A DNA stretch of 64,000 nucleotides from an uncultured Ardenticatenia bacterium (GTDB lineage: Bacteria; Chloroflexota; Anaerolineae; 4572-78; NAK82), in contig CAKZLO010000048.1 in assembly GCA_937127125.1 (NCBI GenBank), forward strand, positions 1 to 64,000, given 5' to 3'. Positions 1,636 through 56,111 of this stretch are shown one piece after another. The position numbers and the translations under genes are program-made. How positions within the stretch are numbered: the stretch's first letter is position 1; every line of letters starts with the position of its first letter. Under the pieces are notes generated by a model. The model was not told the DNA's origin, searched no databases, and saw only the letters and a program-made list of their open reading frames with translations.

Positions 1636-1654
1636 GCCAATGCATCGCAGCCCA

Positions 1655-2527
1655 TCATCCCACCTGCCGATCGAGTCGATCCGGCCAGGACGTGTCCTTT
1701 TCCTCAGCTCGAGGCATCGTTATATTTCGCACCTGCCCCAGGCCGGACGCCGTGCCATAGCCCACTCCGCTGTAGAAAGCATACGCCGCCAGCAAGTTCA
1801 ACGCGCTCAGCCAGTAGCGGTCGCGGTTGAGTGCAGTGAAGGCCACCCGGCCACAAAAGCCGATGAACAGCGCACCCTCTTTGCCCGGGAGCGAGTGGGT
1901 GCGCAAGGCATAGCGTGTCACCACGACCACTTCGGCAGCAAAGCGACGAACTTCGGGACTGAGGGCTACCGGAGCGAAAGTCTGCCAGCGCTCCAACAGG
2001 CTGCCAAACACCAGCTCGGGCAGTGGCAAAGGCACATAGCGTCCACTGCTACGGAAGGTGGTCGGCGAGACAAAGTCGAGCTCCACACGCGATGTCACCT
2101 GACGCGCCCCATCCAGCAGGTAACATATTGCCAGCGTCTGGTAGTCGCTTTGTGCGGCCCATGGATGCACCGATGCATCCAGCGTGGCGCCCAGCACGCG
2201 CAATGGCAAGCCGTCTATGTCCACTTCATCAGGTGGGCTGGCCGCCAGGCGCATCAGACAGGCACTTACCGGCTCCGTCAGGCCGGTAAAACGCAGCCAA
2301 CCGTGCTCACCCGGTCGCACAATCAGGCTGCCTGCGGCGCGACGCCCCAACATCAAATTCGAAGCCGTGTATGGGCGCGGCCCCTCATCGTCATGCAGTT
2401 GCGTTGCCAGCGCGGCGTCTTGTTCGCCAACCAGACGCAACAGCAACGCCTGCGTCGCACGCCCCAGACTGGCAGGCAGGTTACCACCTTCCCGTGCTTC
2501 CAACTGCATGACCAAACTGGTGAGCAT
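1655..2527 (-). CDS. cas6: CRISPR endoribonuclease Cas6
   Basis: Cas6 cuts the CRISPR precursor transcript inside each repeat. The 290-residue form starting at the ATG at 2527 is preferred over an upstream in-frame ATG at 2560 because a GAGAGA-containing purine-rich stretch precedes it and the family's conserved sequence starts there. The glycine-rich C-terminal loop typical of RAMP-fold Cas6 is clear (SGVGYGTASGLGQVR). A histidine at about residue 45, in LATQLHDDEG followed by PYTAS, is a reasonable catalytic candidate by family comparison. It sits between the accessory effector gene and cas1, 19 bases before the latter. Confidence 0.9.
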   Translation of the reverse strand: MLTSLVMQLEAREGGNLPASLGRATQALLLRLVGEQDAALATQLHDDEGPRPYTASNLMLGRRAAGSLIVRPGEHGWLRFTGLTEPVSACLMRLAASPPDEVDIDGLPLRVLGATLDASVHPWAAQSDYQTLAICYLLDGARQVTSRVELDFVSPTTFRSSGRYVPLPLPELVFGSLLERWQTFAPVALSPEVRRFAAEVVVVTRYALRTHSLPGKEGALFIGFCGRVAFTALNRDRYWLSALNLLAAYAFYSGVGYGTASGLGQVRNITMPRAEEKDTSWPDRLDRQVG

Positions 2528-2583
2528 CCCAATTCTCTCTGAATAAATGCAAAGGCACAAAGACGCTCAAACTTGCTTCTGTG

Positions 2584-4278
2584 CTAAGCTATGCGTCTCC
2601 CTCTTGCCTCTTCGCGCACTTGTTGCAGATTGATAATCTCAGCTGCCTCAAAGCGGGGCGGCAAGACGTCCTCTACCGGCCGCATGCGCACTACGGGTGC
2701 AAAGTAGCCCATACGTCCATGTAACTCGGCAAGCAGTGTCATTGCGATGGCGCTGAGCGTAGACGGATTCACAAAGATGGCCGCGTGTTGCCACTCCTCA
2801 GATGTCAGGCCGAGACTGTCGACGAGTTCGCGGACCTGCTCGGCAAAGGGCCTGGTGTGATCAAAATGCGTTGCTACTTCGATCAGCCGGTCGATTGGCC
2901 CGCCGATCAACTGCTCGATCTGCGTGCGTTGTTCCTGGGTCAATGGATGTCCGAAATTGAGCAGGATCATTTCCTTCTCCATTGTGTCCACAGATCGTTC
3001 CCTCTCTTCCAAAACCAGATTGCTTCCTTCTACGAGCTCTTCGGCCAGATCGTGCAGGTCGCAAACCACTTGCCGTGCTCTTCGCAACAGCGAGGACGAT
3101 CGGGATGCGTCAGGTCGCATGCCGGCGTGAGCCAAATCGTTACGCAGCCTGGAAAGTTTGTTCCACACATCGACGAGACTGTACCTCGACGCCAGATCGG
3201 CCACCTCATCGGTAAAAGGTGTGTCTTGAGGAGGTCTTTGCTTGCTCTGAGAACGCTGCCATTCCGCTACGTTGGTAATGGCTGCCTCGACTTGTTCACG
3301 GGCGTCCCGGTCGGTCAGCGCTTTATCGGTCAGATGATAGAGCAGGAGCGAGATGAACCACTCACGCGCTAAGGTGATTGCCTGGACAACCTGTTCCTTC
3401 TCCATGTACCAGCGCACAATTTCCCATTGGACGCGTAAATTGTCCAGGCGCCTGTCGAGATCCTGCGGGCTGGCCAGAGCCAGAGAGCGATAGGCCTGGA
3501 TGATGCGATCGGTCAACAGGGAGAAGGGACGCGCATGGGTCCTCACGATGTCACATTGCCTCTGTAATCTCTGCACCAGTCGTTGCGCTTGTTCCATTGA
3601 CTCCAGAGGACGGCTAAGGCGCAGCGCCAACGAGACTGCTTCCATAGCCTCGGCAGTCCACTTCAAGCTCTTGCCCAGCCGGCGTGCCTTCTCATTCTGC
3701 CCCATCTGCACACCGGTCGGCATGCCGGCACGGAGCAATTCAGCCAGGTCGCGCGCGTCGCCAAAGCGGGTAAAGCGGTCCGTTGCCACGATCCAATCCA
3801 GCAGGGTGACAAAGGGGGTCAAGTCGAACACTGGGCTTTCGTTCCGCTCATTGCGCGCTTCATAGGCTCCGTAGTAGACGCGCTGCACGTCCACTCCCTT
3901 GGCCTTCCTCAGATAAGCGACAGCCAGGAAGCTGAGGAAGGGCAATGAGCGGAAGCCGTTGGTGATGTCGACAACCAGCTCGCTGCCATCAGGTACGCGT
4001 TGGGTGAGTGTGTCGAAGATGTCCCACAGCTCCTCTTCCCGACAGCCGTCGGGGATGAGCACTTCGATGGGCTGGGTTACGGTGTGGATCTCGTCGGCGA
4101 GTGTCTCAAAATGCTTCTGACGTGCCGCCTCGGTGACCACAATCAGGGTGTATTCGGGCGTGGGTTCCAGGAAGCGTACCAGCGCAGCAGCGAAGTAGCG
4201 CGTCTCGTGGCGCTGCATACCCATCACGTAAGTGGTGACTTTGAGGTCAGCAGTACCCAAGAAAGTCAACAAGTACAT
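2584..4278 (-). CDS. CARF-HEPN ribonuclease (TIGR02221/Csx2 type) with C-terminal Csx15-like domain
   Basis: The N-terminal half is a CARF sensor of the TIGR02221 family: it opens YLLTFLGTADLKVTTYV and carries the ligand-loop motif DITNGFRSLP at 104-113. A HEPN ribonuclease domain follows, with catalytic RxxxxH as R379-N-D-L-A-H384. Such proteins are cOA-activated RNases of type III systems. Residues 433-564 form an extra domain beginning MILLNFGHPLT and ending with LLAELHGRMGYF and AEIINLQQVREEAR; I recognise this as the small protein Csx15, usually a separate gene. The total of 564 residues is too long for an ordinary member. An in-frame ATG at codon 437, preceded by GGAGAAGG, could release the Csx15 part separately. 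The gene lies between the Card1-like gene (62-base gap) and cas6. The CARF and HEPN calls are firm; the Csx15 call is from memory of the family. Confidence 0.85.
   Translation of the reverse strand: MYLLTFLGTADLKVTTYVMGMQRHETRYFAAALVRFLEPTPEYTLIVVTEAARQKHFETLADEIHTVTQPIEVLIPDGCREEELWDIFDTLTQRVPDGSELVVDITNGFRSLPFLSFLAVAYLRKAKGVDVQRVYYGAYEARNERNESPVFDLTPFVTLLDWIVATDRFTRFGDARDLAELLRAGMPTGVQMGQNEKARRLGKSLKWTAEAMEAVSLALRLSRPLESMEQAQRLVQRLQRQCDIVRTHARPFSLLTDRIIQAYRSLALASPQDLDRRLDNLRVQWEIVRWYMEKEQVVQAITLAREWFISLLLYHLTDKALTDRDAREQVEAAITNVAEWQRSQSKQRPPQDTPFTDEVADLASRYSLVDVWNKLSRLRNDLAHAGMRPDASRSSSLLRRARQVVCDLHDLAEELVEGSNLVLEERERSVDTMEKEMILLNFGHPLTQEQRTQIEQLIGGPIDRLIEVATHFDHTRPFAEQVRELVDSLGLTSEEWQHAAIFVNPSTLSAIAMTLLAELHGRMGYFAPVVRMRPVEDVLPPRFEAAEIINLQQVREEARGRRIA
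2971..2980 (-). promoter_or_regulatory. possible internal ribosome binding site for a separate Csx15-like product
   Basis: Within the CARF-HEPN-Csx15 gene the minus strand reads GGAGAAGGAA directly before an in-frame ATG (2970-2968). That ATG encodes the methionine where Csx15-like similarity begins. The spacing of the strongest GGAG core to ATG is 6 bases. It may be only the lysine/glutamate codons of the linker, but its position is suggestive of an ancestral start codon kept after a gene fusion. Confidence 0.35.
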
Positions 4279-4340
4279 TCTTGTCCTTGTCCTCTCCGTT
4301 GGCGACGGACGCTTGTTTCATCCGGATGCCTCACAAGGCG

Positions 4341-5252
4341 CTAGGAGCGACACGGCAGCCGCTCCGCGATGCGTTGGCGCAGGCGTTGCACGTCGCCGTC
4401 ACTGAGCTTCCTGAGTCCTCCGTGCCAGTCTACCAGCTCGATCACGCTGATGTTGAGCGCTCCGGCAATTGCTTTATACTGTTCGTCGCGTGTCTCGCCG
4501 GTAACTAAGAAGCGGGCGGCGTAGGTACCCGTGAGCTCACGCGCGGCAGCGGTGGTCAGCTGGTCCACAGCGTGCTTGCCGCTCCCACTGCCGCCACTTT
4601 TCACCTCGATGAAACCGACCTGATTGCCACAGCGGATGACCAGATCGATCTCAACCTGCTCCTTGAGACCGGCCGGGCGAACGCCACGCTTAATTTCATC
4701 TACACAACCGCGCAAGGCATCGTAGACCGCTTTTTCCAGCTCACCGCCTTTCTCTTTGCTGGAGCTATTCTCCTCGTAACCATCGAAGTGAGCCCAGAGA
4801 TAGTCATCCAGGCGGATGGGATCTTGATCCAGCACAATGCGATCCTCAAGCGTGGCTGTATCATCCTGCCAGTAGTAGCGGTAGAGCACGCTCTGTTGAT
4901 CGCGCCCGCGCCGACCCTCGGTCTGTAGATAAAGAAAGGGGCTGCGAAATTGCCGGGCCAGATCGTAGGCAGCCAGTACCATGGTCTTGGTACCGCCAGT
5001 GAGATTGAAGAGAAAATCTCCGCCCGAGGACATCATCTCTTGTTGGATCTTGTCGCGGATCGAGGCGATGTTGTAGGCGTCCTCTATCTTGAGCGGCTGG
5101 GTCTCGGTATCGGAGAGCAGATTCCGCAAGCGACGGGTCTGATCCTCGGTGTGCTTGGTATGCACCAAGACTACTCTCTCCGGCTTGAGGTAACGCGCCG
5201 GCAATAGATTGGGGATGGGCTGCTCGCCCACCAGGGCCACCATCGTGGTCAT
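4341..5252 (-). CDS. Card1/Can2-like CARF nuclease (CARF plus PD-(D/E)XK)
   Basis: This 303-residue protein combines an N-terminal CARF domain (about 4-125, with the loop FNLTGGTKTM at 92-101) and a C-terminal restriction-endonuclease fold. The nuclease residues are visible as E181 (GELEKAVYDAL), D203 (EIDLVI) and E216-V-K218 (FIEVKSG). Card1/Can2 enzymes are known to be switched on by cyclic tetraadenylate to nick DNA, some also cutting RNA. It is shorter than well-studied members, leaving little room for a linker domain. The ATG overlaps the csm5 stop as ATGA, and the ribosome binding site AGGAGG lies in the last codons of csm5, so translation is probably coupled to the Csm complex genes. 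Confidence 0.87.
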   Translation of the reverse strand: MTTMVALVGEQPIPNLLPARYLKPERVVLVHTKHTEDQTRRLRNLLSDTETQPLKIEDAYNIASIRDKIQQEMMSSGGDFLFNLTGGTKTMVLAAYDLARQFRSPFLYLQTEGRRGRDQQSVLYRYYWQDDTATLEDRIVLDQDPIRLDDYLWAHFDGYEENSSSKEKGGELEKAVYDALRGCVDEIKRGVRPAGLKEQVEIDLVIRCGNQVGFIEVKSGGSGSGKHAVDQLTTAAARELTGTYAARFLVTGETRDEQYKAIAGALNISVIELVDWHGGLRKLSDGDVQRLRQRIAERLPCRS

Positions 5253-6388
5253 TCCTTCACCTCCTTCATTTCCACCAGCACCCAGCCGAGGGGGACAATG
5301 GGCAGTTCGCGCGTCTGACCGCTGGTTGAGCGTTCCACTTTGACCAACACGCGTCGGCTTTTCGGAAAAGGATCACCGGGCTGCCGCCTGCCGCGGGTCA
5401 TCTTGTAATCTCGTAGTATCGTTTCCATAAAGCCTGGGTCGCTCTGGAGATGGCTACCAAGAGTTTTACTGTCCCAGCCAGTGCCCCAGCCCAGCTGCAT
5501 GAAGAACTCGTTGTCAGCAAGCGCTTCCTGCTGCCATTCTTTGTACAACTGCACTAGGCGTTGGCTGTTCGGAACGCTGCTCAATAAATTGAGCTCCTGT
5601 GTCAGCCGGTGAGTGTAATAAGCACGCATCACCTGCGCCAGCTGCATCACCATATTCTCCCAACGCAGTTTGAGTTCATGCTGCTCAGCCCACCGCGAGA
5701 AAAGCATAGTGTCCACCTTCAGTGTGAGCTGCAGCTCGGTTTCAGGTCTCAAGGCCTCCAGCTCAATCGGTGCACCCAACGAACCACCTCGATTGAGCAC
5801 GCGCGCGTTGACCAGCATCAGCTGTTCTGGCGAAACCGGCGCGCTGTCAGACACTTGCAGCGCGCGTAGGGTGTCCTTATTCGGTGCCTTACCACTGTGC
5901 TCGCTGAACATCTCCTGCTCATACCATTGGGCAGCGAAGCGACGATCGCGACCCAGCTGTGCCCGCTCGGGACGTAGCTTGAGCGCACGCCACGCTGTCC
6001 ACGCTAATGCTGTGCGCAACGCCCCCTTCACGGTCGTGCCGGGCAGGTAGGGGCGATCGTAGACGTCCTTGATTTGTTCGCGCAACACAGCGCCAGGCGC
6101 ATGTGAGCGTGGCGTTCCCTTGATGACATAACGAAAGAAAGGACTCCCCATCTGGTAATCACGCGGCTGCAACAACTGCTTCGGTGGCGTTTTGGCCAAT
6201 CGATCAGCCAGTGCCGGATCGTCGGCGAGTTGCGCTTCCAACAATGTATTCTCGTTGATCCGCCATGTGTGCCCATTCTGAATGGCATAGTCATACTCAT
6301 TGAGCAGCTCGCGTCCATTACCGATATGCAATGGTGTGAGCGTGCGCACAATTACCCGATACATACGATAGCCATCCCGCTCGCTCAT
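5249..6388 (-). CDS. csm5: type III-A CRISPR RAMP protein Csm5
   Basis: Csm5 caps the 3' end of the crRNA in the Csm complex and helps recruit crRNA-trimming nucleases. Starting at ATG 6388 the product has 379 residues. This start is chosen over an upstream one at 6436 because AGGAGGG precedes it and it overlaps the csm4 stop by four bases (ATGA). RAMP features include the first strand with LTPLHIGNG and the glycine-rich PGTTVKGALRTALAW near residues 118-133. The stop overlaps the next gene by four bases, so csm4, csm5 and the CARF nuclease are translationally chained. Confidence 0.9.
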   Translation of the reverse strand: MSERDGYRMYRVIVRTLTPLHIGNGRELLNEYDYAIQNGHTWRINENTLLEAQLADDPALADRLAKTPPKQLLQPRDYQMGSPFFRYVIKGTPRSHAPGAVLREQIKDVYDRPYLPGTTVKGALRTALAWTAWRALKLRPERAQLGRDRRFAAQWYEQEMFSEHSGKAPNKDTLRALQVSDSAPVSPEQLMLVNARVLNRGGSLGAPIELEALRPETELQLTLKVDTMLFSRWAEQHELKLRWENMVMQLAQVMRAYYTHRLTQELNLLSSVPNSQRLVQLYKEWQQEALADNEFFMQLGWGTGWDSKTLGSHLQSDPGFMETILRDYKMTRGRRQPGDPFPKSRRVLVKVERSTSGQTRELPIVPLGWVLVEMKEVKE

Positions 6389-7578
6389 TGAGATCCCTCC
6401 TGTATGCCAATCGCCAGAGCCAGTCCGTAGCGCCACACGGGATGTTCAAGCCAGCTGGTGGAGCTGCGATACACGGGTCGCACATCGACCACATCGCCCC
6501 AAGGGAGTTCGCCCACTGCGTGAACAATGCTGCCCTCGCTCACGAGCCACACGCGGCGGCGGCGCTGTGCTGGAGAGCCCCATGTGCGCAGCCAACCGCC
6601 CACCGGTATCAGGCTATATCCCCACGCCCGCGTGAGCGCATTGGGCAGCTCTTTTGCGCGCGGATGGTAACGGCTGAGCAGCAGAGCTGGTGTGCCCTGT
6701 TGTGGGTCGGGCAGCTTAAGCCGCCGATCAGCACGCTCCCAGCGAAACGCACCGTAGCCGGTAGTGCGTTCGCCCCCTACTCCGTCATCACCCAGCAACG
6801 TCAACAGGCGCTCCATAGTAACGCGGTAGCTCGACTGTCCTAGTGGCGCATCGGGATCACGCCACTGAATTCCAAACCACAGTCCACAGTTCGACGCAAA
6901 GCAGACACGGCCGGCGTGGAAAATCTGTGATGCCGAAGTAATGCGACTAATTGTGACGCGCGGCACCTGCACATTGGCGAACACGCGTCGTTGCCGCAAT
7001 GTACGTCGCGGCAACGTGCGATGGCATTTTTCATCGCGCGTCCAGTGTACTGGTAGCTGGTCGCACTCGTCGACGGTCAGCCAGAACGCTCCTCCCTGCA
7101 GTGCGACTCCTTTGGTTGGTTCTGCCTTTGCGTCAGCCGGGAAGAGCCACCCCTCCATCTGCTCACCCTTTAGTATCCTCTCTAGAATGCCCGGCGATAC
7201 GTAACGGATGCGGCTGATGTCTTTGCGCCGTTCCTTGAGCACCTCGGATCCAAACAGGTGCTGTAATGCCACCGGCATTGGGAAAAACAGCACCGCACCA
7301 GCATAGGGAAAGGCACTTGTGAGTACAAAGGGTGCATTGGCCTCACTGTGTTCCCAAAGGTCATTCTCAGGTGCTGCGCCAGCTTGCCTCAGCTGTGCAC
7401 GGGGGAAAGATTCCATCCACTGTGCCGGCTCGCCTCCGTCGCGCCGGTAGGTATCCACTAACGCGGCGAAAAGCGAGTCCGATGGGATGCAGACGCCACT
7501 TTCCTCCAGCGTAACGGCATGTGTGCCGATATGGAGTCCGCCCGGAAACGAGAGACGGATGACGTCAAGCGTTGGCAT
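6385..7578 (-). CDS. csm4: type III-A CRISPR RAMP protein Csm4
   Basis: Csm4 binds the 5' handle of the crRNA and contacts Cas10. The 397-residue protein starts with a typical Csm4 opening (RLSFPGGLHIGT, with IPSDSLFAALVD following) and has the glycine-rich loop GDDGVGGERTTGYGAF in its C-terminal half. It is somewhat longer than the roughly 300-residue members best known from Streptococcus. The ATG is preceded by GGAGG at good spacing, 24 bases after csm3. Confidence 0.92.
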   Translation of the reverse strand: MPTLDVIRLSFPGGLHIGTHAVTLEESGVCIPSDSLFAALVDTYRRDGGEPAQWMESFPRAQLRQAGAAPENDLWEHSEANAPFVLTSAFPYAGAVLFFPMPVALQHLFGSEVLKERRKDISRIRYVSPGILERILKGEQMEGWLFPADAKAEPTKGVALQGGAFWLTVDECDQLPVHWTRDEKCHRTLPRRTLRQRRVFANVQVPRVTISRITSASQIFHAGRVCFASNCGLWFGIQWRDPDAPLGQSSYRVTMERLLTLLGDDGVGGERTTGYGAFRWERADRRLKLPDPQQGTPALLLSRYHPRAKELPNALTRAWGYSLIPVGGWLRTWGSPAQRRRRVWLVSEGSIVHAVGELPWGDVVDVRPVYRSSTSWLEHPVWRYGLALAIGIQEGSQ

Positions 7579-7602
7579 AATTGCCTCCTTTCCGCAGCTC
7601 GG

Positions 7603-8439
7603 CTACGCCGGGAGGCCAAGGGCTCGCTTGACCTCTTTGATAATGGTAGCGCGCTCCTGCAAAAGATTGCTTAGGCTCGGGTATTCTCCAATTTGCTGTG
7701 GCTGATCCAGATAGCTGCCGTTGGCGCGCACACCCAGCTGGATGTTTGCAAAACGCACCTTGCCAGAGCCACGCGAACCCAACCCACCCAGGTAGTCGTC
7801 TTCCAGCAACTGCATCGCGGTGAAGAGCGCTTCCAGGCGTTCTACATCGCGCTCAGCGTTGCAACCGTCGCCTTCGTAGACGCTGTAAACGAACACGTCT
7901 CCGCCCGCGCTGCCAAATATACTGCCTGCCGGCACGCGCTCCATCTGGCGTGGATTGGCTGCCGAGGTGACACGGTCGATCGAGACCTCAACCTTCACCT
8001 CAGTATAGGGTAGGTCGGTGCGTGCCGTCTCTTCCAAACGCTTAGCGCTCTCGTCGCTCAGGTGCATATCGCGTACCACCAGACGAGTAGGCGTGGCAAA
8101 GTCGCGCTCACCGGGCACTCCGAATACCTGGCAGACATCACACCTTGCGTAATCCTGTCTGCCCTTTTCCTTGTTATCCGCGCCACAGGAATGAATATAG
8201 CCCTGTCCGATGCGCTGGTTTTGGGGCAATCCGCGATACTTCTCTAACAGGCTGCGCATCTTGCCCTTGAGCGAGGAACCAGGGATATAGGGTCGGTTGG
8301 TGAGTGGATCGCGGATGACCGTTTTGTCCACGCCACCGATCTCGATGCCGGTCTCGGATCCACCGATGTGCAGTCCTGTCACCGCCTCAATTTCAAAACT
8401 GAGAAACACGCGTCCTTTCAGCTGGATTTGTTTAGCCAT
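7603..8439 (-). CDS. csm3: type III-A CRISPR backbone RNase Csm3
   Basis: Csm3 forms the multi-copy backbone of the Csm complex and cuts the target RNA at six-base intervals. The 278-residue protein contains TGLHIGGSE at 21-29 and the catalytic aspartate segment GVDKTVIRDP; D38 lines up with the known active-site aspartate of the family (D33 in the streptococcal protein), so RNA cleavage should be intact. PGSSLKGKMRSLLE follows, and a cysteine cluster (HSCG and CDVCQVFG) suggests a zinc site. The start is supported by GAGGAGG. It follows csm2 by 17 bases. Confidence 0.96.
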   Translation of the reverse strand: MAKQIQLKGRVFLSFEIEAVTGLHIGGSETGIEIGGVDKTVIRDPLTNRPYIPGSSLKGKMRSLLEKYRGLPQNQRIGQGYIHSCGADNKEKGRQDYARCDVCQVFGVPGERDFATPTRLVVRDMHLSDESAKRLEETARTDLPYTEVKVEVSIDRVTSAANPRQMERVPAGSIFGSAGGDVFVYSVYEGDGCNAERDVERLEALFTAMQLLEDDYLGGLGSRGSGKVRFANIQLGVRANGSYLDQPQQIGEYPSLSNLLQERATIIKEVKRALGLPA

Positions 8440-8456
8440 AGGTTGTCCTCCTCTTC

Positions 8457-8921
8457 TCAGTCACCGCCATACGCCTTGTGATAGGCCAGGATTGCCTCAA
8501 AGAACTCCACAAAGCGCTGGTAATTCTCATCCTGATTATCGCGGCTACCCCCAGCCTGTTCTTTGGGTTTCGCTTTCACCACCAGATCAAGCGCTGGCTG
8601 TAACACATTCACAAGATCGCGTACCGCGCTGCCGCGCTCCTTGCGCGCTCGATAAGCCATCTTCGGCTTAAGCAGGATAAGCCGTCGCAAGGCCTGCTGA
8701 CGCCGTCGCTCGATTGCCCACTCCGCCTGGATCTGGCGCACCTCACCGAAGAGCGCTCGAATCTGGCTGGTGGTCAAGCCGCTATCCTTGAGATTCTTTC
8801 CCAACTGATCGGCCCAGTGCACCAGCGTCTCCGCCCCATTGGGATCGGTGATAATGGTGCGCAGGTCCTTTTCCGAAGGACGAGGCACAGCCTGTTGTGG
8901 ATTGCCTCTTGACTGATTCAT
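8457..8921 (-). CDS. csm2: type III-A CRISPR small subunit Csm2
   Basis: Csm2 is the small helical subunit that lines the belly of the Csm complex along the target RNA. The 154-residue protein is slightly longer than usual but carries the family pattern LTTSQIRALFGEV followed by LKPKMAYRARKE and a C-terminal helix with FVEFFEAILAYHK. The first 20 residues look disordered. The start codon ATG has GGAGG eight bases upstream. It lies between cas10 (105-base gap holding a hairpin) and csm3. Confidence 0.92.
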   Translation of the reverse strand: MNQSRGNPQQAVPRPSEKDLRTIITDPNGAETLVHWADQLGKNLKDSGLTTSQIRALFGEVRQIQAEWAIERRRQQALRRLILLKPKMAYRARKERGSAVRDLVNVLQPALDLVVKAKPKEQAGGSRDNQDENYQRFVEFFEAILAYHKAYGGD

Positions 8922-8953
8922 AGTTCACCTCCGTCAAACAATATATGCAGGTC

Positions 8954-8974
8954 CTGAGTGACCAATGGTCTCAG
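8954..8974. repeat. small hairpin between cas10 and csm2
   Basis: CTGAG and CTCAG arms enclose ACC-AAT-GGT, giving an eight-pair stem with a two-base bulge and a three-base loop in the 105-base gap between cas10 and csm2. Every other gap between the csm genes and their Card1-like neighbour is 24 bases or less, or an overlap. It may mark an mRNA processing or stability element that sets the ratio of Cas10 to the backbone subunits. No T run follows. Confidence 0.45.
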
Positions 8975-9026
8975 TGAAACGTTATTCATCTGATAACCAC
9001 AAGATCGCACGAAGCCTTTCTAAATC

Positions 9027-11636
9027 TCACCGTTGTACTGCACGGCGCAACAGCAGGTCCACCCAGCGTGCTGCCAGGCCTATCCATTCGATGGCACGGA
9101 AGTTGTCCGCCTTCAGCTGATCAGCCAGCTGGTCGATTTCTCTATCGCCACGATTCTTCTGGCGTTTCGCCATCCGTTTGAGCATGTAATGAGTGCGCCA
9201 CATCCATGGGCCCCACAACGTCTGCTCCTCACCCTGACGGTTGAGTTCTTCACCACACGCACACCGCTTCCGCGCGGCCTCATCGTGCTGTTCCTGAGCA
9301 CGCATCAGAATGCGTAACAATGCCTCCGGCACACCCATACCGCCTTCCTCGGGGCGACTGGTAAGATGCAACAGCAGCTGGGCCAGGCTGCTGACCGTAT
9401 CCAACCCCTGCGGAATTGGCTGCGCCAACCCGAAACGCTCCCACGCCACCGTCTGCCCCAAGAAGGCAACGGCATCCTTGGTACGCTTGAACCCATTTAC
9501 GCTCCCTTCATAACCTTTGGCATCGCTCTCGGCCTTGCCAGCGTCGTGCGCTGCCTGATAGAGCGGATACTTGCCACCCACCAGAACGACACCCGCGCTG
9601 GCGTGGATGCCGGGATGACCCGCGGCGAATGGCGTCAGGTCAGCACGCACACGTCGCGCCAGCTCGATCACACGATCCCACGCTCCTACAAAGAACAGAT
9701 CATCGCCGCCTGAGTAGATTGAATAGAGTGTCTCGCCGCGCGGCACACCTTTTTTGATCTCTTCGGTTGCCGTCTCCCGGTTCATGCTCTGAGCTAAGTA
9801 TTCCACCCAGCCTTCGAAATAGAGGCTAATTGCAAAGCTGAGTGTCGCCACACGAGACAAGGTGGCGAAGCGACGCACAACGTTGCCATTCTTGTCATAC
9901 TCGGTGAAGCCGTCACTGAACAGCCTGCCACCATCATCAAGGTCCATGCGCAACACACCCAACCGCTGGATCCCCCTCGATTGTGCCTCCAGCAGTGAGA
10001 AGGGCTTTACATCACCCTCTTTCTGGTCCTTCTCCACTTTATCAGGGAAGTGTTTAAGGTCAGCATGCGTCACACAGGGTGTGACATTCACCAGGAAGCG
10101 TCGTCCTACCGCTGTGGTGCTTGTGGGGCCAAGTCTCCCAAGCGCTTCGTCATCCAGCGCCAACACCACTCCCGCGCAACCGCCAGGGGTCGGAGGTTTC
10201 TCGTGCACCGCAGCCTGCCAGCCGAAAGCGGCCAAGACCTCGTGCCACTGCCCAGGTTGCGTCTGCGCCAAACTTGGAGAGGTCTCGTTGCCTGAAACCA
10301 CACATTCACGCAGTTCCAAGTAACGCGCGCGGCGCAAATCCTTGCCCAGCTCCTCGTACGATGCACACGGCGGGCATTTGCGCACCCCTTCCTCCTCGCC
10401 CGGTCGCTTGGATTCAACGGTCCCCGGGTGTTCGCGCCCACACACGGCGCACTGCTTTTCCTCATTGCCGCCATCCTCTTGGGGTGCGAACACATCTGAC
10501 AGCACTTTTTCGGCCTCAGCGAAACGATGTTGCTTTGTGTTGCGCAATGCGCGAGCCAGCTCCTCCCATTTGCCAGAGATGCGCCCATCGAAGAAGTCGG
10601 CTGCAGCCAATGGTACGCCAGCCAGCGCCAAGTAGAGGTCACCGCGATGATGCTGCCATAGCCGTCCGCTGATCTGGCGCTGGATGCGCTGCAGGTTGCT
10701 ATGGTCTTCAGCCCGTGCCAACAGGTAGAAGCCGCCACCACCCTGATAGATCAGGTTGCATACCGGCAGCCCAAGCTCGCGCAGCACGTACCGCGCCAGC
10801 ACCTCAGTCAGCAGTTGTAGATAGAACGAACGCCCACGCAAAGCGCTCGCTGCACCCTGCGAAGTGATGGTGTAAATAAAATCCTGCACGCCGGAAATAT
10901 CACCGCCTACCAGTAAAGCTACCTCGGTCGGATTCGTTTCGGGCGACTGGAGTAGCTTATCCAATTGCTCTTCATCGAAGGCATGCACTATAGCGGCCAG
11001 CGCTGCAGTCATGCGGCTGTGGTCATACAGGCTGACATCCGGCTGAGAACGATAATAGGCCGACGGTACGCACCACGTGTATTGCTGCATCAACAACAGC
11101 AGGCTCTCCAGATAAACCGCCAGTTGCCCCTCCTGGCTGTGCACGTCACAAAGTTGCTTCGCCTTAGTCTGGAAGCCAGCCCACAGGTCGCCATAAGCTC
11201 CGGCGACATCCGGCAACGCTTGGCCTGGAAAGAGTGTATCGCGTTGCAGCGCCAGCGGCTTGAGCGGCCAATAGGCTTGGTTTTGGCAGCGCAGCACCCG
11301 AGACTCCCCCTGTTCGTTTTGCTGCTTGATCTGCAGTCGACAGAATATGGAAAGCAGCTGGCGTGGCTGTTCTGTATCCTCATCGGCGCGCTCGCCAGCG
11401 GAGAGCCGATCAGACAGCGCTACGACTTTGGTCAAACGGTCAATCAATGGTTTATCGTGGTGTCCCATCACTGGATACATAAAACTGCGCCAGGCAGGTG
11501 GCACGATTTCATTGACAATATTGCCACCTACCTCGGTGTGCTTACCTGGCCGTTTCGCCCGTTGTGCAAACTTGCCAATGTCGTGCAGCAGTCCAGCAAG
11601 AGCCGCCTGCAATGTCTCTTCTTTGATTTCAGCCAT
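9027..11636 (-). CDS. csm1: type III-A CRISPR large subunit Cas10/Csm1 (HD nuclease and cyclase)
   Basis: Cas10 is the catalytic large subunit: on target RNA binding it cuts single-stranded DNA with its HD domain and makes cyclic oligoadenylates with its Palm domain. Numbered from the ATG at 11636, HD residues H18-D19 (LLHDIGKFAQ) are intact and the cyclase signature GGDD is intact at 643-646 (IYSGGDDLFFVG). A first Palm with LLVGGDISGVQDFIY precedes it. Four cysteines at about 396, 399, 421 and 424 form the zinc-binding insert. The product has 869 residues. An upstream in-frame TTG is rejected because AAGGAGG, the ribosome binding site for the ATG, lies inside that extension. With both active sites intact, cOA signalling is expected. 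Confidence 0.97.
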   Translation of the reverse strand: MAEIKEETLQAALAGLLHDIGKFAQRAKRPGKHTEVGGNIVNEIVPPAWRSFMYPVMGHHDKPLIDRLTKVVALSDRLSAGERADEDTEQPRQLLSIFCRLQIKQQNEQGESRVLRCQNQAYWPLKPLALQRDTLFPGQALPDVAGAYGDLWAGFQTKAKQLCDVHSQEGQLAVYLESLLLLMQQYTWCVPSAYYRSQPDVSLYDHSRMTAALAAIVHAFDEEQLDKLLQSPETNPTEVALLVGGDISGVQDFIYTITSQGAASALRGRSFYLQLLTEVLARYVLRELGLPVCNLIYQGGGGFYLLARAEDHSNLQRIQRQISGRLWQHHRGDLYLALAGVPLAAADFFDGRISGKWEELARALRNTKQHRFAEAEKVLSDVFAPQEDGGNEEKQCAVCGREHPGTVESKRPGEEEGVRKCPPCASYEELGKDLRRARYLELRECVVSGNETSPSLAQTQPGQWHEVLAAFGWQAAVHEKPPTPGGCAGVVLALDDEALGRLGPTSTTAVGRRFLVNVTPCVTHADLKHFPDKVEKDQKEGDVKPFSLLEAQSRGIQRLGVLRMDLDDGGRLFSDGFTEYDKNGNVVRRFATLSRVATLSFAISLYFEGWVEYLAQSMNRETATEEIKKGVPRGETLYSIYSGGDDLFFVGAWDRVIELARRVRADLTPFAAGHPGIHASAGVVLVGGKYPLYQAAHDAGKAESDAKGYEGSVNGFKRTKDAVAFLGQTVAWERFGLAQPIPQGLDTVSSLAQLLLHLTSRPEEGGMGVPEALLRILMRAQEQHDEAARKRCACGEELNRQGEEQTLWGPWMWRTHYMLKRMAKRQKNRGDREIDQLADQLKADNFRAIEWIGLAARWVDLLLRRAVQR

Positions 11637-11684
11637 CCTCACCTCCTTCAACTTTGTCAGAGGGGCTGTACCGGGCCCAGGCCA

Positions 11685-11975
11685 TTACAGATCCATCCCG
11701 TCGTCCAATGGCCCACCGTCTCCAAAGAAGCCCTCGTTGTCTCCGAAAGGCCCTTCGTCACCAAAGAGCGTGTCTTCGCCGCCAAAGGGGTCTTCACTAT
11801 CGAAGAAGCCCGCGTCCTCACGCCCGGGCGGCCACCTGCCCCGCATAATGTCGATGGCAATCGGGAAAGGTATACCCATAATCGTGTCCGGCGCGAAAAT
11901 GTTGTCCTCCTCGTCCGCCCAATCCGGGTCATACTTGTCGTCATACTCGTCAAGATCATCTTGCTGGCGTGCCAC
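11685..11975 (-). CDS. small acidic protein with Phe-Gly-Asp repeats, unknown function
   Basis: I do not recognise this protein. The GTG start at 11975 is preferred because AAAGGAG lies six bases before it; the open frame continues upstream without a good site. The 96-residue product is about 30 percent Asp plus Glu with only five basic residues. Residues 5-24 are a very acidic run. A short hydrophobic stretch (IMGIPFPIAIDIM, 32-44) follows. Residues 57-96 repeat a phenylalanine plus glycine and acid unit about every 6-7 residues (F58, F64, F71, F77, F84, L90). It precedes cas10 by 48 bases on the same strand. Such charge and repetition suggest a disordered, binding or nucleic-acid-mimic protein; that is inference. 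Confidence 0.6.
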   Translation of the reverse strand: MARQQDDLDEYDDKYDPDWADEEDNIFAPDTIMGIPFPIAIDIMRGRWPPGREDAGFFDSEDPFGGEDTLFGDEGPFGDNEGFFGDGGPLDDGMDL

Positions 11976-12108
11976 AGTCCACTCCTTTTGCGATAGCCCT
12001 TTCATCAAACATATAGTACCCTGCACATTGCTCCAGCGCATTGGAGATTTATCGAATTGAGATTGTAGAAAGTAATGATGCTCCTCAATGCCTTTCGTGT
12101 TATAGCTA

Positions 12109-13011
12109 CTAGGGTGAGCGTTCATCCAGATAACGGAGAAAACGGGCGAAGTGATCGTGCACAAAGTGGTACGAGAGATAGGCATCCTCCGGCAGATTCC
12201 ATGCAATGCGACACTGATCAAGGATGGCTGTCTTGTGAGCGTTGACCGTCGCCAGGGTGACGTGCAAGCGTTCAGCAATATCCTGTGGTGTACATCCAGC
12301 AGCCAGCAGACGCAATACCTCGCGCTGTCGCTTCGTCAACTGTGCGAACACATTCTGACAACGCGCATACTCAGTGGCTTCCAGCTCGGCAGTCTGGGCA
12401 GCGATAACCTCTGCCGACGAATGCACCAGCTTACGCAATGCCGGGAAGTAGGTGCCCCAAGGTACAAAAGGCACCCGGATGAGGCGCACACCATCCGTCG
12501 ATTGTGCGTGCATAACGGCGCCGTCGCGAGCACGTTTCAGAAACCCAGTGGGCGTGTACATATGCCACACGTGATCCTGATGACCACACAACAACATAGC
12601 TGCGCTGAACGTCAACAGAGCCATAGTGCGTCGGCCACCAGCGATGCACAGATGCAACGGACGCCCCTGGGCTTTCAACGTCGTCAACAGCTGGTATACT
12701 GCACACCAGACCGCATCAGCATCTGCCTCATTGCGAATGTCAGGCAGACGGAGATCATCATTATGTCGGATAGGTACCAGCCGCAGACGGCACGGGTGTC
12801 CGCGGTACTGGTCACCACCGAACTCGCGATGCAGCTGTTCCAATGCACGCTGGGTACATCGATACTCATCAGGGAGATCGGTGGTGGGGGACAGATGCAG
12901 CACCACTACTTCGCGAATGATCTCGCCGCGTGCCAGCAGCCAGTCCAGGGCGAAGGTCACTACTTGGGGTTGACCGCCCACAGTTACCAGAAGGATACTC
13001 TCGGTCTCCAT
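12109..13011 (-). CDS. CARF-domain LuxR-type transcription regulator (NE0113-like sensor plus HTH)
   Basis: Residues 4 to about 180 resemble the NE0113 branch of CARF proteins (ILLVTVGGQPQVVTFAL at the start and the glycine-rich loop CIAGGRRTMA at 122-131). Residues 225-265 are a clear LuxR/FixJ helix-turn-helix (LTKRQREVLRLLAAG then DIAERLHVTLATVNAHKTAIL). It should bind a cyclic oligoadenylate or related nucleotide and DNA. No nuclease motif is visible. It lies at the head of the minus-strand CRISPR operon, 133 bases before the acidic protein gene, and is divergent from the Csx3-like gene with 245 bases between them. It may regulate both the cas operon and its divergent neighbour. The HTH is certain; the ligand is inferred. 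Confidence 0.85.
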   Translation of the reverse strand: METESILLVTVGGQPQVVTFALDWLLARGEIIREVVVLHLSPTTDLPDEYRCTQRALEQLHREFGGDQYRGHPCRLRLVPIRHNDDLRLPDIRNEADADAVWCAVYQLLTTLKAQGRPLHLCIAGGRRTMALLTFSAAMLLCGHQDHVWHMYTPTGFLKRARDGAVMHAQSTDGVRLIRVPFVPWGTYFPALRKLVHSSAEVIAAQTAELEATEYARCQNVFAQLTKRQREVLRLLAAGCTPQDIAERLHVTLATVNAHKTAILDQCRIAWNLPEDAYLSYHFVHDHFARFLRYLDERSP

Positions 13012-52116: not shown

Positions 52117-52614
52117 GTGGATATAGAGTGGATGCTGTTGGGTCTGCGTCTGCTGGCGGTTGTCGTTTTATACGCTTTTCTTTTGGTGATTGCCTATGTA
52201 ATTTGGCGAGATTTGCGTTCAGTTGCCAGAGGTCACCACTCGGAAAACGTTGCAGCCGCGAGAGAGGAAACTCCATTGGCATGGTTACAGGTGGTTAATG
52301 ACACGGACGCCACCGACTGGCCTAAGACAGTTTTCACAGTTGTTCCCCCTGCCACTTTGGGACGTGCCAGTGATAACCAAGTCGTGCTCCAGGATGAGTG
52401 GGTATCGGCATACCATGCGCGTATCGAGATTCAGGCAGGCAAGTGGTGGTTGACCGATCTGGGCAGTCGCAACGGTACACGCCTAAACGACATGCTCATT
52501 GTAGAAACAACCCCTTTAACAAAAGGGGATATCATCTCTGTCGGCCGATTGAAGTTGCGGTTCGAAACTGGCGATGGGATGTCCCTTGCCGACCCCAATA
52601 AAACAAAAGCATAG
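52117..52614 (+). CDS. membrane-anchored FHA-domain protein (FhaB-like)
   Basis: The GTG start has GAGGAG upstream. The 165-residue protein has one membrane helix (about 7-29), a linker, and an FHA domain at about 73-152 with the phosphopeptide-binding residues GRASDNQ (82-88), VSAYHARI (96-103) and DLGSRNGT (114-121). FHA domains bind phosphothreonine, so a Ser/Thr kinase should exist elsewhere; none is in this window. The cluster resembles fhaAB-ftsW/rodA-pbpA of actinobacteria. Confidence 0.9.
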   Translation: MDIEWMLLGLRLLAVVVLYAFLLVIAYVIWRDLRSVARGHHSENVAAAREETPLAWLQVVNDTDATDWPKTVFTVVPPATLGRASDNQVVLQDEWVSAYHARIEIQAGKWWLTDLGSRNGTRLNDMLIVETTPLTKGDIISVGRLKLRFETGDGMSLADPNKTKA

Positions 52615-52623
52615 GAGATGATT

Positions 52624-53496
52624 ATGGAACCAGTCACGCTTGCAGTCATTGGTGGTTCAGGCGTCTATGAAATGGAGGAACTGACCAACATTGAAGAAGT
52701 GAAGCTGCAGACCCCTTTCGGTGATCCCTCTGATGTCATTGTCATCGGCAGCTTGTGTGGACATCGGGTTGCCTTTCTGCCTCGCCACGGGCGCGGTCAC
52801 CGCATCAGTCCCAGTGAATTGAACAGCCGGGCTAACATATATGCCCTGAAGCAGCTGGGTGCTGCTCAAATTGTATCGGTAAGCGCCTGTGGAAGCTTGC
52901 GTGAGGACTTCGCCCCACGTGATATTGTCATACCGGATCAGCTGTTCGACCGCACACGGGGTCGCCCCCTTAGCTTTTTTGGAAACGGACTGGTGGTCCA
53001 TATCAGCTTTGCCGAGCCATTCTGTAGCCGGCTTTCTGACCTGTTGTACAAAGCAGTTGCAGCAACCGGCGCCAAGGTGCACAAGGGAGGTGCCTTCCTC
53101 ACTATCGAAGGACCACGTTTCAGCACTAAGGCGGAGAGTCGAATCTATCGCCAGTGGGGGATGGACATCATCGGGATGACAGCAACACCCGAAGCCCAGC
53201 TAGCGCGCGAAGCGGAGATGTGTTACGCCACAATGGCTCACGTAACGGACTACGATGTGTGGCACGAGTCAGAAGAACCTGTGACTGTCGAAGCCATTGT
53301 GCAAAACTTGATGGCTAACGCTGCAATCGCCAGGCAAGCGATCAAGAATCTGGTTGAGATGCTTCCGCCCACTTTCGATTGTCCTTGTCATCATGCTCTG
53401 CGCGACGCCATCATCACCCGCCCCGAGTTCATACCTGAGCACACCAAAAGGAACCTGGACCTCCTTATCGGCAAGTATCTAAAAGAGCGATCATAG
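52624..53496 (+). CDS. mtnP: S-methyl-5'-thioadenosine phosphorylase
   Basis: MtnP splits methylthioadenosine with phosphate in the methionine salvage pathway. The 290-residue protein has the MTAP/PNP landmarks: VIGGSGVYEM near the start, FLPRHGRGHRISPSELNSRANIYAL, SVSACGSLRED, EGPRFSTKAESRIYR and MTATPEAQLAREAEM. TAGGAG precedes the ATG at 52624; another ATG two codons earlier overlaps that site. It lies inside the FHA-ftsW cluster with short spacing on both sides, which is unexpected for a salvage enzyme. Confidence 0.95.
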   Translation: MEPVTLAVIGGSGVYEMEELTNIEEVKLQTPFGDPSDVIVIGSLCGHRVAFLPRHGRGHRISPSELNSRANIYALKQLGAAQIVSVSACGSLREDFAPRDIVIPDQLFDRTRGRPLSFFGNGLVVHISFAEPFCSRLSDLLYKAVAATGAKVHKGGAFLTIEGPRFSTKAESRIYRQWGMDIIGMTATPEAQLAREAEMCYATMAHVTDYDVWHESEEPVTVEAIVQNLMANAAIARQAIKNLVEMLPPTFDCPCHHALRDAIITRPEFIPEHTKRNLDLLIGKYLKERS

Positions 53497-53525: not shown

Positions 53526-54914
53526 GTGGCTCAGGCAAAACGGCACTTTATGAAAAGTTCAGGCGCGAGCATCTATCCCTCAACGTTAGGCCCAATGAAG
53601 CCGTTGCTCTCCCAAAGGCACCCATGGTGTATGGCACTGATCGTGGGGCTTCCCTTGATATTCACCTTCCTGGCCTTTGCCCAGCTCTCTCTGGTAGAAG
53701 ATGCTCGATTGACGCCCACGCGCTTTATCGCTCCTGCAGCGTTGGCAGTGTGTATGCTTGCCACCACCTGGTTGTTGCAGCAGGCACTGCCCCTTCACGA
53801 TCAATTGTTGCTGCCCCTAATCACCCTGCTAATAGGCTGGGGAATGGCCGAGGTAGGACGCTTGGCGCCGCCTGTGTTTCTTCAGCGTCAGACCACCTGG
53901 ATGGTGTTGGGAAGTGGTGCTCTGCTGGTAGTTGCCCTTGTACCACAAGGGCTACAGTGGTTAGAGCGTTTTCGCTACACTTGGTTGCTGTTGGGTCTGT
54001 CGTTGCTAGGGATGACATTCTTCCTAGGGGTAAACCCCAGCGGTACGGGAGCTCGTCTCTGGCTAGGTGTTGCTGGACTTTACTTTCAGCCTTCTGAGCT
54101 GCTCAAGCTACTGATGATCGTGTTTCTAGCCACCTACTTGGCGGAGAGACGGGCCGCATTGCTTGAGGTCAGCTTACGGGTACACCGTTGGCGCATACCT
54201 CATCCAGCTTACCTAGGCCCTCTGCTACTGATGTGGGGATTCAGCATAATACTCTTGCTCTGGCAGCGTGATCTGGGGGCCGGATTGCTGTTCTTTGCGG
54301 TATTCCTAGCCATGTTCTATGTCGCGACAGGGCAAGGGCGTTATGTGCTGGTCAGCCTAGTTCTGCTGGCCGGAGCAGGAGCGATAGGTTACCACGTGTT
54401 TGACGTGGTAGCATTGCGTGTAGACGCTTGGTGGGATCCATGGCGAGAAGCATCGGGGCGCTCGTTTCAGATCGTGCAAGCATTGCTGGCCTTTGCCAGC
54501 GGTGGCGTTCTTGGCCAAGGACTGGGGCAGGGATTACCCAGTGCTATACCGGTGGTACATACTGATTTTGTCTTCGCCGCAGTGGGCGAGGAGTACGGAC
54601 TAATTGGCACACTGGGTCTGGTGATAAGTTTCATGCTACTGGTCTCACGTGCTTTTCGTATTGCATTATGCTGTGAGCGAATGTTCGAACGCCTGCTGGC
54701 GGCCGGCATTGGTTCGCTTTTCGGCCTGCAGTCGTTAGTGATTATGGCAGGCACGCTGAAGCTGATACCTCTAACAGGGGTGACGCTCCCGTTCGTGAGC
54801 TATGGAGGCAGCTCGCTGTTGGTCAGCATGGTAATGGTAGGATTGCTGGTGCGCCTTTCCTCCCGCCCTACCTCTCCATACCAGAGTTCACCGGCGTTCA
54901 TCCAAGGGGGGTGA
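53526..54914 (+). CDS. FtsW/RodA/SpoVE-family peptidoglycan glycosyltransferase
   Basis: SEDS-family enzymes polymerise lipid II into glycan strands together with a cognate PBP. The 462-residue protein has about ten to twelve hydrophobic helices and the SEDS signatures: NPSGTGARLWLGVAGLYFQPSELLKLLMIVF, then LWQRDLGAGLLFF and the C-terminal TGVTLPFVSYGGSSLL. The start taken is GTG at 53526; an ATG at 53550 is possible. FtsW and RodA cannot be told apart here. The partner PBP gene follows after six bases but is degenerate. Confidence 0.92.
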   Translation: MAQAKRHFMKSSGASIYPSTLGPMKPLLSQRHPWCMALIVGLPLIFTFLAFAQLSLVEDARLTPTRFIAPAALAVCMLATTWLLQQALPLHDQLLLPLITLLIGWGMAEVGRLAPPVFLQRQTTWMVLGSGALLVVALVPQGLQWLERFRYTWLLLGLSLLGMTFFLGVNPSGTGARLWLGVAGLYFQPSELLKLLMIVFLATYLAERRAALLEVSLRVHRWRIPHPAYLGPLLLMWGFSIILLLWQRDLGAGLLFFAVFLAMFYVATGQGRYVLVSLVLLAGAGAIGYHVFDVVALRVDAWWDPWREASGRSFQIVQALLAFASGGVLGQGLGQGLPSAIPVVHTDFVFAAVGEEYGLIGTLGLVISFMLLVSRAFRIALCCERMFERLLAAGIGSLFGLQSLVIMAGTLKLIPLTGVTLPFVSYGGSSLLVSMVMVGLLVRLSSRPTSPYQSSPAFIQGG

Positions 54915-54920
54915 TAGGCG

Positions 54921-56111
54921 ATGACGACCAGCATTATGCGCCTCACGGGCGCACTACTAGTGGGCTTCATAACTGTAGCAGTGGCGCTTGTTTACTGGCA
55001 AGTCTTCCGCGCGCCAGAGCTGGTGGCACGTGCCGACAATCCACGACTTATCCAGGCCGAGTTACGCGTAAAACGAGGAAGCCTTTTGGATCGCACCGGA
55101 ATGGTACTCGCTTTCTCGGCTCCAGCACACCTTTCGGATAGCGACCAGGTTGTGTTCCGTCGTCACTACCCAGAGCTAGCAGCAGCACATTTGGTCGGCT
55201 ATTACAGCCTACGCCACGGCACAGGTGGCTGCGAAGCCGTGTTTGACGCCACGCTCCGCGGCAAACGTACCCAGATAGAAGAACTGCTGCATCGCCCCCA
55301 GCTGGGCGAGGATGTTACATTAAGTGTCAGCTTAGCGGCAACGCGCGCAGCGGACGTCGCGCTGGGTGACCACATTGGGGCGTTGGTGGCGCTTGACATT
55401 GTAAGCGGCGAGATACTGGCTATAGTAAGCCATCCCTCTTACGATCCCAACCGACTAGATAACGAGTGGGAAAGGCTCGCCACTGATCCTGCTGCCCCAT
55501 TGTTGAATCGCGCCACACAGGGAGTCTATCCAGTTGGTGACTTGGCCCGCTGGATTGGATTAGCTGGACTGCTCAGTGCCGGTATCACGACACCACCTAA
55601 TCCACTAGAAGTTCCCCTTGAAGTGTTGCTCGCGCCGCTTAGCCGGATGGGGTATCTGGCTACAGCGCATCAACTTGGCTTCACCAAGACACCTCTGACT
55701 GTGTTACCGGCCAGTCCAGGGCGGTTGCCCAATTTCAAGGGCAAAACCACAGAGCGTGATCTGGCGGTCACCCCGTTGCATATGGCACGTTTTATCGCAG
55801 CGGTGGCAGGAGATGGCCGAATGCCAGCCGTCAGGCTTGAGCGCACAACCACACCAGCTACAATGGAACGCATCTTTTCAGAATACGTTGCGCGCACTCT
55901 CCGTAATATTACCCCGAAACATGACGAGATAGCTGGTTGGTTAGGAATAGCGTCGCCGGTAGAGACAGGTCGTGAGTCTCTCACTTGGTTTGTGGGGTAC
56001 GCTCCCACCACTTATCCCAAGGTGGCTGTTGCCGTGGTCATCGAAGATGAAGACGACCGCCTGGTGGCATCGTCGATAGCTCACCGCACTCTGGCTACAT
56101 TGTTGCAATGA
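54921..56111 (+). CDS. PBP2/FtsI-like protein lacking transpeptidase catalytic motifs
   Basis: The protein follows the FtsI/PbpA pattern: N-terminal membrane helix (7-28), RVKRGSLLDRTGMVLA, and a transpeptidase-like region with GALVALDIVSGEILAIVSHPSYDPN and NRATQGVYPVG. The catalytic SxxK motif, normally GSTFK after YPPG, is GDLAR here: the serine is D207 and the lysine R210. The KTG motif is ETG at 348-350. At 396 residues it is about 80-100 shorter than PbpA. It cannot be an ordinary transpeptidase or penicillin target and is more likely a structural or regulatory partner of the adjacent FtsW-like enzyme. The frame is intact, so it is not a decayed gene. Confidence 0.85.
   Translation: MTTSIMRLTGALLVGFITVAVALVYWQVFRAPELVARADNPRLIQAELRVKRGSLLDRTGMVLAFSAPAHLSDSDQVVFRRHYPELAAAHLVGYYSLRHGTGGCEAVFDATLRGKRTQIEELLHRPQLGEDVTLSVSLAATRAADVALGDHIGALVALDIVSGEILAIVSHPSYDPNRLDNEWERLATDPAAPLLNRATQGVYPVGDLARWIGLAGLLSAGITTPPNPLEVPLEVLLAPLSRMGYLATAHQLGFTKTPLTVLPASPGRLPNFKGKTTERDLAVTPLHMARFIAAVAGDGRMPAVRLERTTTPATMERIFSEYVARTLRNITPKHDEIAGWLGIASPVETGRESLTWFVGYAPTTYPKVAVAVVIEDEDDRLVASSIAHRTLATLLQ

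Follow-up and report, generated by a model that had tools for sequence, protein, structure and literature searches.

The gene at 54921-56111 of the window (the whole 64,000-nucleotide stretch of DNA that was analysed) encodes a PBPA-type class B PBP that has lost all three transpeptidase motifs and lies directly behind a gene for a SEDS glycosyltransferase. The best explanation, to which we assign a probability of roughly three in four, is that this inactive PBP, whose ancestor was an active transpeptidase, serves as a membrane-anchored subunit, both structural and allosteric, of the third SEDS glycosyltransferase of the genome, with cross-linking provided in trans, most likely by a MecA_N-type PBP. 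The physical complex, the activation of the SEDS enzyme, the cross-linking in trans and the absence of acylation by beta-lactams are inferred. Judged from aligned orthologs, the observation on one gene extends to a class-wide, partly SEDS-fused family of degenerate PBPs.

The 396-amino-acid product is, in its sequence and its predicted fold, a class B PBP without the chemistry. In Pfam the protein matches Transpeptidase with E 1.2e-18 (PF00905) and PBPA dimerisation with E 1.5e-7 (PF21922), and an AlphaFold2 model that used 21 orthologs as input has a mean pLDDT of 88.8. Ranking for this model with Foldseek and VIA-align places PBPA and other class B PBPs first, and M. tuberculosis PBPA (3upn) matches it with a Z of 42.4 and an rmsd of 2.4 over 345 residues. 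The traits of class B PBPs (a single N-terminal membrane helix, a pedestal/dimerisation domain and a transpeptidase fold) are all present according to Pfam and the model. The frame opens with ATG after a gap of 6 bases that follows the SEDS stop at 54914. An earlier note on this DNA had described the frame and the fold signatures as intact, and this description is backed both by purifying selection and by the fold match to PBPA.

Table 1. Coordinates of the SEDS and PBP genes, their upstream neighbours and the PBP features within the window
Feature	Position	Strand	Evidence
FhaA_N-domain protein, 154 aa	51646..52110	+	PF12401
Membrane-anchored FHA-domain protein (FhaB-like)	52117..52614	+	PF00498
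MTA phosphorylase-like gene	52618..53496	+	ORF; sequence pattern, no family search
SEDS (FtsW/RodA-type) glycosyltransferase, catalytic Asp347 (HTD) intact	53526..54914	+	FTSW_RODA_SPOVE PF01098, E 2.1e-74
PBPA-type class B PBP with degenerate transpeptidase domain, 396 aa	54921..56111	+	ORF, Pfam, PDB sequence match, AlphaFold2
N-terminal membrane-anchor helix, residues 2-29	54924..55007	+	Helix in model; hydrophobic sequence
PBPA dimerisation/pedestal domain, residues 52-117; rate not raised compared with the rest	55074..55271	+	PF21922, rate test
GDLAR in place of SxxK, residues 206-210, at the beginning of helix 206-219	55536..55550	+	PBPA alignment, model
WLG at the KTG position, residues W340-L341-G342, in strand 337-344	55938..55946	+	Alignment to intact homologues, model
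ETG of the earlier note, residues 348-350, in the turn after the KTG-position strand, eight residues past WLG	55962..55970	+	

Each of the three catalytic motifs is missing from the protein. YPVGDLAR aligns with YPPGSTFK of M. tuberculosis PBPA, so D207 sits where the nucleophilic Ser would be and R210 where its Lys would be; GDLAR had already been proposed to stand in place of GSTFK, and the alignment agrees. A scan of the whole protein revealed no SxxK motif at any place; the presence of one elsewhere, in the correct structural position, had been named beforehand as a result that would refute the claim of a dead PBP. The scan also found no SxN anywhere in the protein, where the corresponding region is shortened, a loss that the earlier note did not mention. 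No KTG is present in the transpeptidase domain, and the sole match to [KRH][ST]G in the protein, RTG, lies in the N-terminal part at residue 58. The earlier note was thus correct that KTG has been lost, but the ETG that it put forward as the replacement is not the equivalent of KTG, because the aligned triplet is WLG. The SxxK and KTG positions are 133 residues apart, compared with 200 to 235 in intact orthologs, and about 70-80 residues are missing between them, including the SxN region. GDLAR (or GDVSR/GDMVR) is kept in 15 of 18 orthologs from the same order, which argues against both sequencing error and chance. This conservation of the Asp and Arg, for which a check had been proposed, does not extend to the other order members or to other clades. 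Although the absence of penicillin binding and of catalysis is inferred only from the motifs, it is very likely that transpeptidase activity has been lost, as had been claimed before; no SxxK occurs elsewhere, and SxN and KTG are gone.

Relatives were collected by profile searches of two genome sets, one of 248 from the class and one of 251 from the phylum, and the motif positions were read from aligned orthologs. Two relatives bear names in their deposited records, which list them as Ardenticatenia and Anaerolineae bacteria; we take the phylum of both to be Chloroflexota, and the class sampled is inferred to be Anaerolineae in the broad sense. Most genomes in the sample are draft assemblies, although one (G004) is a single contig. 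The aligned orthologs number 147; all three motifs are gone from 98 and kept in 47, and 2 match only at the KTG position. The class sample includes 102 genomes with an ortholog, of which 92 are degenerate and 10 intact. By contrast, 37 of 38 orthologs from other classes of the phylum are intact. As read from these sequences, the ancestor of the family was most likely catalytically active, and the motifs would have been lost within the class. Residues at the lost sites vary by clade (GDLAR, PGAALE, PGMLLQ or IGTALx), as expected if the catalytic constraint is gone.

Parsimony indicates at least two catalytic losses. An AU test does not reject monophyly of the class members (p 0.525), and it is possible that one main loss and a separate loss in ortholog L026 occurred, or that losses were more numerous. 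L026 and L056 belong to one genus; L056 is intact, and L026 keeps KTG and its frame. In L026 the stretch from SxxK to SxN has been swapped in frame for a low-complexity segment rich in Glu, Leu and Gly that derives from repetitive DNA. Its catalytic loss appears from the sequence to be a separate event that is recently finished or in progress. The only degenerate, SEDS-fused ortholog outside the class is L158, which may represent a further independent case or assembly contamination, its genome (G266) being listed at 8% contamination.

Degenerate orthologs have open frames without internal stops throughout, in about 100 species. Their pairwise NG86 dN/dS values are about 0.09-0.2 for the N-terminal part and 0.1-0.3 for the transpeptidase part, and in close pairs dN/dS of the accompanying SEDS is also far below 1. 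Among 50 independent degenerate pairs, the segment that begins at SxxK outpaces the anchor and pedestal in 46 (median ratio 1.34), compared with 6 of 22 intact pairs (median ratio 0.90), a difference with a Mann-Whitney p of 1e-9. The portion of the transpeptidase domain before SxxK has no such rate shift (0.89 in degenerate and 0.86 in intact pairs). This pattern fits a lost catalytic constraint together with a putative retained function of the anchor and pedestal. With its catalytic motifs gone and purifying selection maintained, the gene satisfies the criterion for a pseudoenzyme. Because the transpeptidase-like half is relaxed yet still under purifying selection, it may have a further role, such as peptidoglycan binding.

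The adjacent SEDS protein has the residues expected of a working polymerase. Its Asp347 aligns with the HTD Asp of T. thermophilus RodA, which is Ala (HTA) in 6pl6, and its equivalent in E. coli FtsW is taken to be D297, a putative catalytic residue. Changes in the loops that bear the equivalents of this Asp and of W179, R298 and Y426 inactivate E. coli FtsW (PMC8765783). The SEDS protein in the window has all four residues as well as G427. In readable SEDS sequences beside degenerate PBPs, the catalytic Asp, W179 and R298 are each present in 95 of 95, and Y426 in 94 of 95.

Of 100 degenerate orthologs, 63 are fused to the SEDS protein in one stop-free frame and 33 are adjacent to its gene. 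Linkage was not seen in the other four, two of which are at contig ends, and in three assemblies (G005, G009 and G015) a SEDS ortholog is present elsewhere, apart from the degenerate PBP. No fusion was found among the 31 linked cases of intact orthologs in the sample. A dependence of fusion on degeneracy was not significant, because the 8 changes on the tree provide too few independent contrasts (about one that is informative). A structure model of one natural fusion (L018), based on 10 sequences, has a mean pLDDT of 58.5, with a poor SEDS part, and no SEDS-PBP interface is claimed from it. The 6-base gap, the recurrent fusion and the intact catalytic Asp of the SEDS protein support the earlier proposal that the SEDS association has been retained.

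Mycobacterial PBPA (PbpA) is the best match of the window protein in both sequence and structure, and the PBP_dimer_2 domain is common to both. The gene order FhaA-like, FHA, SEDS, PBP in the window is also that of the mycobacterial cluster. In mycobacteria the order is fhaA-fhaB-pstP-rodA-pbpA-pknA-pknB, and fha-rodA-pbpA clusters occur in actinobacteria. The 154-residue FhaA_N protein stops short of a C-terminal FHA domain; a relative in L146 (3682-4455, 257 aa) retains this domain. The single-contig genome G004 has the same order of FhaA_N, FHA, MTA phosphorylase-like and SEDS genes. The MTA phosphorylase-like gene, which lies between the FHA and SEDS genes both in the window and in L146 (5012-5875, G004), has no obvious link to wall synthesis. 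Far upstream, the minus strand at 616-13011 carries a type III-like CRISPR-Cas set with Cas1-like, Cas6-like and Csm/Cas10-like ORFs, recognised only by sequence patterns. One ORF there (12109-13011) appears, by sequence pattern, to have an unusual pairing of a CARF/ring-nuclease-type N-terminus with a LuxR-type helix-turn-helix C-terminus.

The genome encodes two other SEDS proteins, one near a PBP2-like gene (L002) and one near an FtsI-like gene (L001). The motifs of L001 and L002 are intact, and they lie near FtsW-type and RodA-type genes, respectively. In total, six further PBP genes with a transpeptidase domain accompany the window gene. L003 (G000:C65) comprises MecA_N, PBP_dimer and Transpeptidase domains with all motifs intact, and L004-L006 are three long PBPs with intact motifs, of which L004 has a transglycosylase domain that confirms it as class A. 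The genome also carries three YkuD L,D-transpeptidase candidates. The search for another class B PBP that the earlier note recommended thus yields PBP2-like, FtsI-like and MecA_N-type proteins with intact motifs. Of the 92 genomes that carry degenerate orthologs, 87 have a MecA_N match, as do 7 of 10 genomes of the class with an intact one, 61 of 146 class genomes without an ortholog, and 14 of 37 intact-ortholog genomes of other classes. No match was found in five degenerate-ortholog genomes (four of the class sample and G266). Such matches are common in the class overall (155 of 248 genomes). This distribution agrees with cross-linking in trans, but it is confounded by ancestry and is no proof. 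L003 has the domain architecture of B. subtilis PBP3 and S. aureus PBP2a. A close relationship between those two proteins is reported (PMC5656894).

Several known systems resemble parts of this arrangement. In E. coli RodA-PBP2 and FtsW-FtsI, the SEDS protein is switched on by its class B PBP partner through the anchor helix and pedestal of that partner (PMC8078798, PMC10449877), and pedestal contact with the SEDS loop ECL4 is responsible for activation (PMC8078798); unlike the window pair, however, these pairs keep a working transpeptidase. Beta-lactams acylate mycobacterial PBPA (3upn, 3upo, 3upp), whereas in the window protein the three motifs are absent and the stretch between them is about 70-80 residues shorter. 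SEDS-PBP proteins encoded by a single ORF are reported, and synthetic fusions are functional (PMC10449877). A penicillin-bound PBPA-type domain of Atopobium parvulum is numbered 522-946, which suggests by inference that it too is part of a fusion. That domain binds beta-lactams, whereas in the class the fused PBP domains have no catalytic motifs. In B. subtilis, division is sustained by a catalytically dead PBP2B provided that PBP3, the MecA_N-type enzyme there, is present to supply the cross-linking activity (PMC5656894), and a SpoVD S311A mutant of C. difficile indicates that SpoVD catalysis is partly dispensable while the SEDS partner is needed (PMC12713402). These are SEDS-paired class B PBPs that are needed as proteins although their catalysis can be dispensable, with a second PBP as helper, as is inferred for the window protein; in C. 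difficile, however, the catalysis of the helper is likewise dispensable (PMC12713402). Both are laboratory mutants, whereas the loss in the Chloroflexota family is natural, old and spread across many families. By analogy, the proteins of the class look like natural, fixed counterparts of the dead-PBP mutants. No naturally inactive SEDS-paired PBP and no account of Anaerolineae PBPs was found in the literature searched, which excluded most subscription papers and all preprints.

Absence of every catalytic motif in a genome with six other transpeptidase-domain PBP genes might also be the mark of a redundant PBP that is decaying and still open by chance. Such a pseudogene is largely refuted by dN/dS values far below 1 in both parts, by frames that are intact in about 100 species, by repeated SEDS fusion in which the frame was never lost, and by N-terminal positions that are invariant across orthologs, including DNPR 39-42, R81, G93, R98 and E105. 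It is scarcely more credible that the protein remains an active enzyme with Asp207 and Arg210 as a substituted active site. D and R are indeed retained in those 15 of 18 orthologs, but elsewhere in the order the two positions read K/K, E/A or E/S, and in other clades mostly xxLQ or xxLE; the pair is thus constant in just one section of a single order and does not amount to a new active site across the family. Moreover, the equivalents of SxN and KTG are lost, and an Asp at the former Ser position would suit a helix N-cap.

Perhaps the main job of the transpeptidase-like half is instead that of a non-catalytic module that binds a peptidoglycan strand, the lipid II peptide or another wall-synthesis protein, with SEDS activation secondary. 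We consider this unlikely, though not negligible. Purifying selection on the C-terminal half and the high-confidence model of a complete PBP fold are in its favour, yet this half evolves fastest, the interval between motif positions ranges from 95 to 216 residues, and the old active-site residues vary by clade, such that no shared pocket is visible. Also, because the third SEDS-PBP pair is extra to the RodA/PBP2-like and FtsW/FtsI-like sets, it might make a glycan other than peptidoglycan that needs no cross-linking. This is very improbable, given that the SEDS residues required for lipid II polymerisation are invariant and that orthologs outside the class retain an active transpeptidase.

An inactive subunit of the third SEDS enzyme remains the preferred reading. 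All catalytic motifs are lost, yet selection persists on a gene beside, or fused to, an intact SEDS gene, so only the helper role appears to have been kept, across a large bacterial group. The penicillin-insensitive activator suggested in the earlier note fits these data and has precedent in the literature, although activation and the failure to bind penicillin are inferred. The anchor helix and pedestal of the pseudo-PBP would hold the SEDS enzyme and switch it on, and the SEDS protein, with its catalytic residues, would polymerise strands. The new strands would then be cross-linked in trans by a separate transpeptidase, for which the MecA_N-type class B PBP encoded elsewhere in the genome is the most likely candidate.

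A broader and more speculative proposal, which we regard as possible but hold only tentatively, is that the whole lineage has a split synthase. Its polymerase would be coupled permanently, and often covalently, to a pseudo-transpeptidase activator, and cross-linking would be left to a MecA_N-type PBP, which is a back-up or resistance enzyme in Firmicutes. If true, the lineage-wide split would be a long-standing natural counterpart of the "dead PBP2B plus PBP3" experiment. SEDS-bPBP pairs and dead-PBP mutants were already known; the variant proposed here is a SEDS-bPBP synthase with a pseudo-transpeptidase subunit. The literature evidence that was found on how separable the activator role of class B PBPs is from catalysis comes from engineered mutants. 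Here the separation occurs by evolution in dozens of species, in stages that are intact, partly lost in one congener of two, fully lost, or lost and fused. The family offers minimal activators for structural work, in which conserved pedestal positions may mark the activating surface, and its fused polymerases, inferred to lack transpeptidase activity, offer assays that are free of that confounder. A SEDS machine without its own penicillin target also bears on the action of beta-lactams.
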